A DNA stretch of 64,000 bases, from positions 1,860,001 to 1,924,000 of the forward strand of contig NZ_FMHY01000002.1 in NCBI RefSeq assembly GCF_900090225.1, read 5' to 3'. The DNA comes from Micromonospora eburnea. Its GTDB lineage: Bacteria > Actinomycetota > Actinomycetes > Mycobacteriales > Micromonosporaceae. This document shows, in pieces, positions 42,709 to 45,636 of this stretch. A program made the position numbers and the translations under genes. The notes below the pieces were generated by a model. The model was not told the DNA's origin. It ran no database searches and worked only from the letters and a program-made list of their open reading frames with translations. The number at the start of each line of letters is the position of its first letter. Position 1 is the stretch's first letter.

Positions 42709-43653
42709 ATGCGTCGTCTCGCCGTCGCCCTCACCGCGGCCCTCGCCCTCGGTGTCGGTCTCACCGCCTGTGGGGAGAGCGACCCCGCCCCCGGTGCGGC
42801 CACCGGGGACACCCGGGAGATCACCCACGCGATGGGCACCACCAAGGTGCCCGCCGAGCCGAAGCGCGTGGTGGTGCTCGACACCGACAAGTTCGACACC
42901 GCGCTCTCGCTCGGCGTCACGCCGGTCGGCGCGGCGACCGCCGGTGAGGCGAAGAGCTGGCCCACCTACTTCGGCGCGGAGAAACTCGCCGGAATCAAGG
43001 CGGTCGGGGTGCTCACCGAACCCGACCTGGAGGCGATCAACGCGCTCAAGCCCGACCTGATCCTCGGCAGCAAGTTCCGCCAGGAGAAGTTCTACGACGA
43101 GCTGTCCGCCATCGCGCCGACCGTCTTCACCGAGCAGGTGGGCGTCACCTGGAAGGAGAACTTCCTCCTCGACGGCAAGGCCCTGGGCAAGGAGCAGCAG
43201 GCTCACGACCTGCTCGCAGCGTACGAGAAGCGGGCGAAGGAGTTCGGCGCCTCGCTCGGCGACGCCGCGTCCCGCCAGATCTCCATCGTCCGCTTCATGC
43301 CCGGCAACATCCGGGTGTACGGCCCGGAGTCGTTCTCGGGCATCGTCATCGGCGACACCGGGCTGGGCCGCCCCGTGCGGCAGCGCCTCGACGGCAAGAA
43401 GGACAAGCGCTTCGACCAGGTCAGCCCGGAGCGGGTCAACGAGGTGGACGGCGACGTCATCTTCGTCACCGCGTACGGCGAGAAGGCCGCCGCCGAGCAG
43501 ACCAAGGTCACGGCCGGCAGCCTCTGGCAGGGTCTCGCCGCGGTCAAGGCCGGCAAGGCCCACGTCGTCGCCGACGAGACCTGGATGACCGGCATCGGCG
43601 TAACCGCCGCCAACAAGATCCTCGACGACCTGGAGAAGTACCTCTCCGCCTGA
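42709..43653 (+). CDS. Ferric-siderophore substrate-binding lipoprotein
   Basis: 314 residues. The signal peptide ends in the lipobox LTAC (Cys21), so it is a membrane-anchored lipoprotein. The mature part is a FepB/FhuD-type class III binding protein: EITHAMGTTKVPAEPKRVVVLDTDKFDTALSLGVTPVGAA, LEAINALKPDLILGSKF and SIVRFMPGNIRVYGPESFSGIVIGDTGLGRP. It delivers the iron-siderophore complex to the permease pair. It is last of the four-gene operon and is followed by a palindromic element at 43686. The siderophore is not identified; no siderophore synthesis genes are in view. Confidence 0.92.
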   Translation: MRRLAVALTAALALGVGLTACGESDPAPGAATGDTREITHAMGTTKVPAEPKRVVVLDTDKFDTALSLGVTPVGAATAGEAKSWPTYFGAEKLAGIKAVGVLTEPDLEAINALKPDLILGSKFRQEKFYDELSAIAPTVFTEQVGVTWKENFLLDGKALGKEQQAHDLLAAYEKRAKEFGASLGDAASRQISIVRFMPGNIRVYGPESFSGIVIGDTGLGRPVRQRLDGKKDKRFDQVSPERVNEVDGDVIFVTAYGEKAAAEQTKVTAGSLWQGLAAVKAGKAHVVADETWMTGIGVTAANKILDDLEKYLSA

Positions 43654-43685
43654 CCCGTCGCGCCGCATCGCGCTCCTGCGGCCCG

Positions 43686-43763
43686 CAAGATCGCACTCGA
43701 TTCAGGAAGTAGTGGCCTCGTCCGCATGGGAGGCCACTACTTCCCTGTTCGAGCATGATCTTC
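43686..43763. repeat. Palindromic element, left copy, abutting the DUF559 gene
   Basis: The outer arms are AAGATCGCACTC and GAGCATGATCTT. The inner arms GGAAGTAGTGGCCTC (43705-43719) and GAGGCCACTACTTCC (43730-43744) pair perfectly over 15 bp around a 10-base loop. The right end overlaps the stop codon of the DUF559 gene (43762-43764). It aligns closely with the reverse complement of the element at 44853-44931, so the two form inverted repeats around the gene. It could also act as the gene's terminator. Confidence 0.85.
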
Positions 43764-44787
43764 ACGTCACGGCAGCGCGCCAGCCGCGGGCACGCAGTGC
43801 CGCGCGCACCTCGGTGAGGATTCCGTCGAAGTCGTGCCGAAAGCGTTTCGCTGTGACGTGCAGGACGATCCACTCCGCCCCGAGCAGCCGGTTGAGCCGT
43901 TGACGGTCCCGGTGGAACTGCTCCGGGTCGTCGTGCCACAGCCCGTCGTATTCGACCGCGACCCTGAACTCCGGCCACGCCAGATCCAGCCGGGCGATGA
44001 AGCGCCCCTGTTGCGACACCACCCACTGCGTCTCAGGGCGGGGCAGACCGGCACGCACCAGGCGCACCCGCGTGCGGGACTCCTGCGGGGACTCGGCGCC
44101 GGCGTCGGCAAGATCGACGGCGCGCAGCAACGATCGCCAGCCGCGCCTGCCGGCCCTGGCCAGGGCGTACTCCCGTAGGGCGGTGACGTCGGTGAGCCCA
44201 CGGGCCAACAGGCCGTCGATGAGCACCACCGCCTCGATCACGTCGAGCCACCGCGCCAGGTCCCAGCAGGTACGCGCTGGCGAGGTGACCAGGATGCCCG
44301 CCCGCTCCACGACGTCGCCCGGGTCCACCTCGGCGCGGTGCACCCGCAGACCGCTCATTGGTCCCCGCTGGCCGGGCGCGCAGCCCGGCCTCGCCGGGGC
44401 GGCGTCGGAAGTCCGTGCCAGACGGACGGCCGGCGCGGAGCCAGGTGCCGGCGCGGCCGGTGCGGGGACGGGTGCCGAGAGGGCTCGTGGCGGTGTGGGG
44501 GTGAGCACGTCGACGGGCTGCTCGGGAGCGACGTGCCCGACGCGGTAGAGGGCGGCGGCCGAACGGCCGGCGATGGCGGTGCCGGCGGGCACCAGCCAGC
44601 GGAGCACGGCGGCGCACCGGTCGGCATGGGTCACGCTCAGCTGTGCGTCGGCGTAGACGTCGCGAAAGAGCGGCCGCCAAGCCGAGCTGCGGAGATCGTT
44701 ACGGGTCAGCAGACCACGCCGCACCGCAACGGAGCCACGAAAGATCCGACCGCGCAGTTGGGGCGGTCGCCGAGGAGCTTTGGGCAT
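43762..44787 (-). CDS. DUF559 (Vsr-like endonuclease fold) protein with AbiEi-like N-terminus
   Basis: 341 residues from ATG 44787 (GTG 44793 also in frame). The N-terminal part GSVAVRRGLLTRNDLRSSAWRPLFRDVYADAQL resembles the winged-helix start of AbiEi-type proteins. The middle has a Pro/Ala-rich linker (about residues 100-145) and VTSPARTCWDLARWLDVIEAVVLIDGLLARG. The C-terminal DUF559 domain, related to Vsr nicking endonucleases, has ARLDLAWPEFRVAVEYDGLWHDDPEQFHRDRQRLNRLLGAEWIVLHVTAKRF, with the conserved Asp and Glu-x-Asp-Gly core. Actual nuclease activity is not proven for the family. The gene lies alone, flanked on both sides by inverted palindromic elements. Confidence 0.8.
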   Translation of the reverse strand: MPKAPRRPPQLRGRIFRGSVAVRRGLLTRNDLRSSAWRPLFRDVYADAQLSVTHADRCAAVLRWLVPAGTAIAGRSAAALYRVGHVAPEQPVDVLTPTPPRALSAPVPAPAAPAPGSAPAVRLARTSDAAPARPGCAPGQRGPMSGLRVHRAEVDPGDVVERAGILVTSPARTCWDLARWLDVIEAVVLIDGLLARGLTDVTALREYALARAGRRGWRSLLRAVDLADAGAESPQESRTRVRLVRAGLPRPETQWVVSQQGRFIARLDLAWPEFRVAVEYDGLWHDDPEQFHRDRQRLNRLLGAEWIVLHVTAKRFRHDFDGILTEVRAALRARGWRAAVT

Positions 44788-44852
44788 ACGCACACGCTGC
44801 CCGATTCCGTGCCCCGGCGCTGCCCCTGTGGATAACCCGGAACGCCGCTCGC

Positions 44853-44931
44853 CAAGATCGTGCTCAAACGCGGAAGTAGTGGCCTCCCAGGAGCTGGGAG
44901 GCCACTACATCATGGATCGAGTGCGATCTTG
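44853..44931. repeat. Palindromic element, right copy, upstream of the DUF559 gene
   Basis: The outer arms are AAGATCGTGCTC (44854-44865) and GAGTGCGATCTT (44919-44930). The inner arms GTAGTGGCCTCCCA (44876-44889) and TGGGAGGCCACTAC (44895-44908) are perfect over 14 bp with a 5-base loop. In reverse complement it matches the left copy (43686-43763) over most of its length. It starts 66 bases upstream of the DUF559 start codon. Confidence 0.85.
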
Positions 44932-44982
44932 CCCGCCGCGGGACAGCGCCGGCGGGACCGCGCCGCGGGCGGGGGTGGGAGG

Positions 44983-45636
44983 TCAGGCGGCGGTGGACCA
45001 GATGGCGCGGAAGGCAGCGGCCTCGCCGGCCAGCCACTGTTCGAGTTGGTCGGGGCGGGCGGTGGTGGGCATGCGGTGGGCCTCGCCGCGCCGGACGTCG
45101 ACCAGGACCGGCTCGGCGTGCGGCAGGACCGCGTCCATGTGCCGGGCCATCAGGTGCAGCGTGGCCAGGGTGGCCTCCTCGCTCGGCGGTGCCTCGTCGA
45201 AGTGCAGGCGGATCGCCTCGGCGCGGCCGTCGGCGTATCGGACACCGAACTGTGGGTTGATCTTGACGGGCAGGTCGCCCAGCATGGCCAGGGCGTCCCG
45301 GGTCTGCGCCAGGTCGACTCCGGCCGGGTCGCCGAGGGAGTGCAGCCAGGTGGTCGCGCCCGGCACGAGCGCCTCGTAGAGCGGACGCCAGCGGGGCTTG
45401 ACCAGGTCGGTGACCTGGGCCAGGTGGGTGCCGCCGGTGTGGAAGGCGACGTCGGCCTTGAGCGCCTTGACGAACTGGCCGTGCGGGTTGAAGCCGTGCC
45501 GGCTCGCCCGCTGCTTGCGCAGGCCCCCGACGAAGGTGGCCTTGGTGGGCCCGGTGCGGTCCACATACCGGGTGAACCCGAGCAGGGTGGCGTAGGGAGT
45601 GACAGGGGCGGTGGAGGTGGGCGCAGTCACGAGCAT
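44983..45636 (-). CDS. Conserved hypothetical actinobacterial protein
   Basis: 217 residues from GTG 45636, preceded on the minus strand by GGGAGG at correct spacing. Readable segments are TPYATLLGFTRYVDRTGPTKATFVGGLRKQRASRHGFNPHGQFVKALKADVAFHTGG, HFDEAPPSEEATLATLHLMARHMDAVLP and VLVDVRRGEAHRMPTTARPDQLEQWLAGEAAAF. There is no signal peptide or membrane helix, and no motif that I can assign to an enzyme family. A dyad-symmetric site is located just upstream. Coding is secure, function unknown. Confidence 0.75.
   Translation of the reverse strand: MLVTAPTSTAPVTPYATLLGFTRYVDRTGPTKATFVGGLRKQRASRHGFNPHGQFVKALKADVAFHTGGTHLAQVTDLVKPRWRPLYEALVPGATTWLHSLGDPAGVDLAQTRDALAMLGDLPVKINPQFGVRYADGRAEAIRLHFDEAPPSEEATLATLHLMARHMDAVLPHAEPVLVDVRRGEAHRMPTTARPDQLEQWLAGEAAAFRAIWSTAA

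Follow-up and report, generated by a model that had tools for sequence, protein, structure and literature searches.

A Micromonospora nuclease gene between cognate palindromes: sequence comparison suggests an enzyme-and-repeat partnership resembling REP/RAYT

The analysis of a 64,000-nucleotide stretch of the Micromonospora eburnea genome (the window) suggests a previously unrecognised partnership of an enzyme and a repeat, resembling REP/RAYT and built on an unrelated enzyme. Comparison of the loci showed that many nuclease lineages each have their own class of palindrome on both sides of the gene, that the right palindrome stands at the stop codon, and that the same palindrome occurs as solo copies at other sites in the gene's host. 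We regard it as probable that the locus is a two-part element, made of a nuclease gene and the cognate palindromes at its edges, in a REP/RAYT-like partnership that involves an unrelated nuclease. Features of the locus are listed in Table 1.

Table 1. Features of the nuclease locus, in window coordinates.
Feature	Position	Strand	Remarks
AbiEi-Vsr-like nuclease gene (DUF559/MTES_1575 type)	43762..44793	-	343 aa from GTG 44791-44793
AbiEi-like part (predicted), residues 9-230	44104..44769	-	structure matches 6y8q, 1zel; PADLOC AbiEi profiles
Vsr-like nuclease domain (predicted), residues 235-338	43780..44091	-	matches 3r3p, 1cw0; conserved columns
Upstream neighbour, 217 aa, no Pfam family	44983..45636	-	conserved syntenic anchor, outside the unit
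Downstream neighbour, periplasmic binding protein (Peripla_BP_2)	42709..43653	+	second anchor, outside the unit
Right (downstream) palindromic element, class 1	43686..43763	.	overlaps the nuclease stop codon
Left (upstream) palindromic element, class 1	44853..44931	.	inverted relative to the right one
TTATCCACA motif	44828..44836	-	between left element and gene start; also before many close homologs

An earlier note, made from the letters of this DNA, had described two near-palindromes with AAGATC/GATCTT ends at these positions, and sequence and alignment bore this out: the elements are 78-79 bp long and carry such ends. It had also seen that they align with each other in inverted orientation; two alignments of this kind were recovered, I1 over 51 nt (84% complementary) and I2 over 36 nt (89%). 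Single-strand folding of the two elements gave -25.9 and -27.6 kcal/mol (z of -7.6 and -7.9), and 0 of 200 shuffles folded as well as either one. Their placement, one at the stop codon and the other before the start, was likewise as described, since the right element and the TGA (43762-43764, minus strand) have 1-2 bases in common, and the left one begins 59 bases beyond the GTG or 65 beyond an ATG at 44785-44787, where ortholog alignments begin and which is thus the supported start. By a rule read on homologous flanking copies, the right element has its GATCC-type arm outward and its GAACA-type arm toward the gene. A search of Rfam returned two matches, both under the gathering scores of their families.

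The word TTATCCACA(GGGG), which presumably resembles a DnaA box, stands just before the start of the nuclease gene in the window and upstream of homologs. Between -200 and +80, TATCCACA was present in 29 of 67 homolog models, many of them orthologous, while the background was 2 occurrences in 684 kb, both strands and window included. Three Arthrobacter homologs have TGTGGATAA, which is this word reversed.

The enclosed protein had been said to contain a Vsr-like DUF559 domain. Its Pfam scores are below the curated cut-offs (18 bits for DUF559, cut-off 20.6; 25.7 bits for MTES_1575, cut-off 38.2), and the claim is supported by the predicted structure. An AlphaFold2 model was built on 22 aligned homologs, with a mean pLDDT of 87.2. 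Residues 9-230 of the model matched the AbiEi antitoxin 6y8q (Z 12.0, rmsd 6.0, 174 aligned), and this AbiEi-like part also matched Rv2827c (1zel, Z 8.5); residues 235-338 matched the homing endonuclease I-Bth0305I (3r3p, Z 10.8), the endonuclease-like protein 3hrl (Z 10.6) and E. coli Vsr (1cw0, Z 8.7). Foldseek alone found no match in the PDB at E <= 0.001, and a sequence search of the PDB brought up I-Bth0305I at E 0.21 only. The Vsr-like domain holds the conserved stretch DLAWP...VAVEYDGxWH. The MTES_1575 and DUF559 profiles match, weakly, the window protein and the 8 further members scanned, and an AbiEi_1 or AbiEi_4 profile was found in 4 of these 8. PADLOC placed AbiEi profiles over residues 143-236 of the window protein and nothing on the protein of L034, the second paralog in the same genome; NCBIfam gave no family for the window protein, and the Pfam scan no Y1_Tnp. 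The prediction for the protein is thus a fusion of an AbiEi-like module with a nuclease domain like that of Vsr and I-Bth0305I. Scanning of three neighbouring genes yielded one product with no Pfam family, Peripla_BP_2 and a DEAD helicase/DUF3516, and no AbiEii toxin among them. The M. eburnea genome has three homologous nuclease genes (four stretches).

Homologs were compared at 23 loci from named genomes of Micromonospora, Plantactinospora and Catellatospora; most lie between the same neighbours, so that they are not independent. At the 12 loci among these that hold all three genes, mean identity to the window was 70.4% for the nuclease gene, versus 88.1% and 84.7% for the two neighbours, and by this measure the nuclease gene diverges faster than they do. 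The class-1 repeat is present on both sides at 17 of the 23 loci, at L052 on the only side that its contig holds, and at five on neither side. The pair of L057 belongs to a different class (AAGATCCGCGCAACTTC...GCTGCCTC) and occupies the same place as that of its class-1 relatives. Class 2 was found on both sides at this place in L057, L074 and L173, with a left-right similarity of 29-40 within each locus, versus about 8-11 to class 1. One clear class-2-type copy was seen in each of L049 and L054, and a weak one, on the right side only, in L055 and L056 (both Catellatospora). In 21 of the 23 pairs of this place the inverted score was at least as high as the direct one, the exceptions being L047 and L074, and L173 being tied. 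In the protein tree, 13 rows whose palindromes are of class 1 cluster in one clade (96/99), including L059, which has both copies upstream of the gene; L049, L054 and L061, with one clear class-2-type copy each, form another (94/91, branch not starred). L057 and L074, being out of frame, were left out of the tree. The class of palindrome thus follows the clade of the nuclease, a co-diversification that is based on two classes within one place and on the unrelated families described below.

Some further observations concern this place. The class-2 nuclease genes of L057 (M. parva) and L074 (genome G004) are out of frame C-terminally, at similar positions. L055 and L056 have neither the EYDGxWH stretch nor a class-1 or matched flank pair, and are natural candidates for an inactive enzyme. 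The flanks of L063 (genome G011) can be aligned with the place of the window and each of them carries a palindrome of yet another, third class (GGAATGAGTGGCTATTCC). A boundary at which the cassette of L057 would have been exchanged against that of its class-1 relatives was looked for and given up, the spacers being too divergent even among class-1 species.

Beyond this place, the two flanks of every gene model were compared with each other by local alignment, in a flank window that began 20 bp inside the gene. The controls, 339 ORFs of similar size from the M. eburnea genome and from G019, which belongs to a different family within the order, had a 99th percentile of 24.2 and a highest score of 41.2. 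Thirty-eight of the 68 models with a score exceeded the percentile, and four more were unscorable. Many of the 68 are orthologs or duplicates; a fair test comes from the unrelated loci. G019 has 13 homologs, and 8 of these paralogs were above the percentile, each with a different sequence, the 5 others having no matched pair. So were 6 of the 7 homologs from a plasmid collection (three Tsukamurella, three Arthrobacter and one Nonomuraea); three of the seven are unannotated with guessed starts, and L198, which has no pair, is among these three. The right copy of every one of these 14 pairs (8 from G019, 6 from the plasmid collection) starts no more than 20 bp from the stop codon. The pairs are direct rather than inverted in 6 of the 8 cases from G019 and in 2 of the 6 from the plasmid collection. 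In the M. eburnea genome itself, L034 has its own pair (score 52), and the third paralog, L011, has none. Together with the 17 of 23 named-genome loci, these figures uphold the expectation that genes of DUF559 type are repeatedly flanked in this way elsewhere.

Five of these families were checked for dispersal, and for four of them additional copies were seen, always confined to the host of the gene. The L143 element gave 11 matches in G019, of which three lie at the gene and the other eight apart from it, and 0 in eight other genomes; among the 8 families of G019 it is the only one with a further copy within 200 kb of that genome. Out of 72,556 records of the plasmid collection, the L193 element occurred only in seven of Tsukamurella tyrosinosolvens (14 places), the L196 element only in nine of the same species (11 places), and the L195 element only in two of Arthrobacter sp. 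StoSoilB13 (24 places). The repeats being palindromic, places may be counted once per strand, and since the collection holds few chromosomes of close relatives, restriction to the host is weakly tested there. Some Tsukamurella copies of the L193 and L196 families overlap annotated genes. The L197 element was found at two places in one record, with no further copy in that replicon; the chromosome of that strain lies outside the collection.

The class-1 repeat is dispersed as well. A 111-bp query over the right element gave 32 matches in the M. eburnea genome (7,185,375 bases searched), which merged to 22 places, some partial and all on contig C2. With 22 places for three nuclease genes, most copies lie far from any such gene; free copies, whose existence was one of the questions raised by the earlier note, were thus found here as in the hosts of other families. 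The copies share the plan AAGATCGTGCTCGATCC.GGAAGTAGTGGCCTC, loop, reverse complement. The class-1 query matched 29 of 51 genomes of the genus, and had no match in either the plasmid or the phage collection. Most class-1 flanking copies, on both sides, have the GATCC-type arm outward and the GAACA-type arm toward the gene. When the arms of 33 solo copies were typed by a simple string rule on the sequence letters, 14 had one outer and one inner arm, 10 had two outer arms and 9 were undecided or other, so that many solos resemble a single flanking element that has been copied. The idea that solos arose by deletion, joining two outer arms as in a MITE, was rejected as the main rule, with 10 cases of 33 only.

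By the stricter ORF calls, 0 of 62 solo copies lie inside an ORF; by looser calls, three copies of the M. eburnea genome lie over ORFs (L023, L024, L032). Fourteen of 27 classifiable solo sites were in convergent gaps, versus 13 of 68 background pairs, and 3 of 27 in divergent gaps, counts that rest on crude ORF calls and leave 35 of the 62 solo sites unclear. Several solo copies directly follow stop codons. At 1207-1582 of L115, in G063, three elements stand in a row, two of class 1 and one of class 2. At 8408-8455 of L015 (around 19424 of contig C2 of M. eburnea), a partial class-1 element is followed by the ten bases CACGTCACGG, which also follow the right element of the window inside the nuclease gene; this stretch may be the remnant of a deleted gene copy.

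The gene is present only patchily at its place. The 217-aa upstream neighbour was found in 20 of 20 further genomes, 16 of which had been chosen for having no class-1 match. Beyond it, 2 of the 20 have the cassette, with class-2-type palindromes, and in 3 a class-1 element stands alone or is degenerate (L177, L171, L178); L181 has another palindrome, L175 a promoter-like remnant, and in 13 of the 20 nothing of the cassette was seen. An orthologous place without the gene does exist, as the earlier note had proposed to look for, and holds a single element: L177 and L094 have one element each, flanked by the same neighbours, and when they are aligned with full loci the alignment breaks at the element's edges or close to them. 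Such places are as compatible with loss as with gain.

No fresh insertion, excision or target duplication was seen in our comparisons, and target-site duplications were not evident by eye in the flanks of the 22 places of the M. eburnea genome; nor could any solo copy be aligned with a clean empty site. Several solo copies are old, since they are shared between species at ~79-95% DNA identity (for example L086, L088, L089 and L091, in four genomes); among the matches listed, the solo site of L092 is common to L095. The class-2 copy of L132, beside a tRNA-like stretch, compared with L015 of M. eburnea (genome G000), suggests presence in one and absence in the other, but the case is not clean because the M. 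eburnea spacer holds a possible class-1 remnant. Copy number appears only loosely tied to the resident nuclease: G008 has 21 class-1 matches and no close homolog, G004 has 27 and a gene of class-2 type whose frame is broken in places, and G005 has a class-1 gene, yet 3 matches, while in G002 and G012 many copies and the gene are both present. Class-2 copies are abundant in G002 (39 matches) and G063 (18), both of which carry class-1 genes. Relics of earlier nucleases would explain this loose link. A RAYT elsewhere in the M. eburnea genome was considered and rejected, Y1_Tnp, the RAYT domain, being absent from that genome; it was absent from 9 of the 14 genomes searched, G019 included.

The earlier note had compared the arrangement to that of RAYT systems, with a different nuclease family, and this part is supported; its further idea, that the gene moves its own palindromes, can be carried as far as an inferred mechanism. 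The AbiEi-like module would bind the palindrome, which is plausible because AbiEi proteins bind inverted repeats. The Vsr-like domain would then nick or cut DNA at the palindrome, as a duplex, an extruded cruciform or a single-stranded hairpin, and repair or replication across the cut would create an extra copy at a new place, or would overwrite the partner copy and so keep the two flanks alike. The nuclease would stay at one inherited place, as a RAYT does, while palindromes spread and later decay. More tentatively, and with rather more doubt than confidence, these loci of Actinomycetota could form a new class of mobile DNA in bacteria, in which AbiEi-guided Vsr-like nucleases recognise their own palindromes and multiply them with no transposase. 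Hairpins or cruciforms would be cut and then copied by host repair, and there would be many separate nuclease-palindrome families, each host lineage having its own.

Other explanations account for part of these data. The nuclease could be a free-standing homing endonuclease of Vsr-like type that targets the palindrome and copies the gene with its flanks into a place with a lone palindrome, solo copies being target sites or decay products. The fold of I-Bth0305I is among the nearest to the nuclease domain, the cassette is patchy at one syntenic place (2 of 20 genomes, with the choice of 16 noted above), and the alignments of L094 and L177 to full loci break close to the edges of the single element or right at them. 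Homing alone, however, puts no palindromes at many unrelated sites, the gene is flanked on both sides by full palindromes rather than half sites, and loss explains the patchiness equally well, so that we consider this explanation unlikely. A regulatory role, with the palindromes as sites of autoregulation or of a regulon of the AbiEi-like domain and a nuclease that does not spread them, agrees with the AbiEi fold and with the promoter inverted repeats bound by AbiEi proteins of other bacteria (PMC7319586). It is improbable in view of the copy at the stop codon in 14 of 14 unrelated pairs, and of solo copies that, by the crude ORF calls, favour convergent over divergent gaps (14 of 27, versus 13 of 68 in the background, and 3 of 27).

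Solo copies outnumber nuclease genes and follow the resident nuclease loosely in number, as would be expected of REP- or MITE-like palindromes moved by another transposase, next to which the nuclease is a bystander or preferred neighbour. Against this stand the many nuclease lineages, in several bacterial families, each with a pair of its own at a constant distance from the stop codon, and the absence of a Y1 transposase, the only family searched, from 9 of 14 genomes; we give this explanation little credence. That the elements are simply gene-end terminators or hairpins arisen by chance, which the earlier note had left open, can be set aside as very improbable. The right element does lie at a stop codon, like several solos, but no terminator-like site was found in 43500-45200, the two copies resemble each other in sequence, as terminators need not, and recurrence of the repeat at 22 places in one genome excludes chance. 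Our preference thus remains for a nuclease gene with cognate palindromes at its edges.

DUF559/MTES_1575 proteins have in Pfam no assigned function beyond the nuclease fold, and the link to cognate palindromes gives the family a function that can be tested. The link would also offer a second, independent answer to the REP problem: by what means short palindromes spread, and for what reason a domesticated enzyme persists. Because one orthologous place has naturally switched its class of palindrome, a specificity experiment is at hand. In open PubMed Central, outside which preprints and most subscription papers lie, we found no paper joining DUF559/MTES_1575 with flanking or dispersed palindromes, and in the literature examined no enzyme of restriction-like fold was met in any dispersed-palindrome system.

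Several known systems share parts of this arrangement. Caulobacter VsrA (CCNA_02930), which PMC12907096 describes as a DUF559 Vsr-like protein connected with cytosine methylation and with the SOS response, is alike as a DUF559 Vsr-like nuclease; the string 'palindrom' has 0 occurrences in the main text of that paper. AbiEi antitoxins of type IV toxin-antitoxin systems (Rv2827c, S. agalactiae AbiEi) have the fold of the N-terminal two-thirds, but here a nuclease is fused to it, palindromes stand on both sides and are dispersed, and the AbiEii nucleotidyltransferase toxin of the AbiE system is absent from the three neighbours scanned. The EDxHD homing endonuclease I-Bth0305I shares the fold of the nuclease domain (Z 10.8) and a patchy presence at one place; it differs in that an AbiEi-type part here replaces the phage-type DNA-binding modules, and in that the gene was not seen in an intron and is both flanked by dispersed palindromes and associated with them.

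The closest likeness is to REP/RAYT (TnpA-REP, REPtrons), where, according to PMC2817692 and PMC3733652, a fast-evolving gene lies between two cognate palindromes, pairing is class-specific and solo copies are dispersed between genes. The present locus shares the flanking cognate pair, inverted here and of class 1 in 17 of 23 homologs, the class-specific pairing, the fast-evolving gene and the intergenic solos. The enzyme, in contrast, is AbiEi-Vsr-like and not an HUH Y1 transposase; the elements are about 50-100 bp long (47-101; 78-79 at the locus) with AAGATC ends and without the GT(A/G)G head of the 20-40 nt REPs; they occupy about 20 places in their own genome, whereas REPs, according to the literature, usually number >100; and the orientation of the pair varies (direct in 6 of 8 in G019 and 2 of 6 in the plasmid collection). 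As far as sequence tells, the system works like REP/RAYT and is not a member of it.
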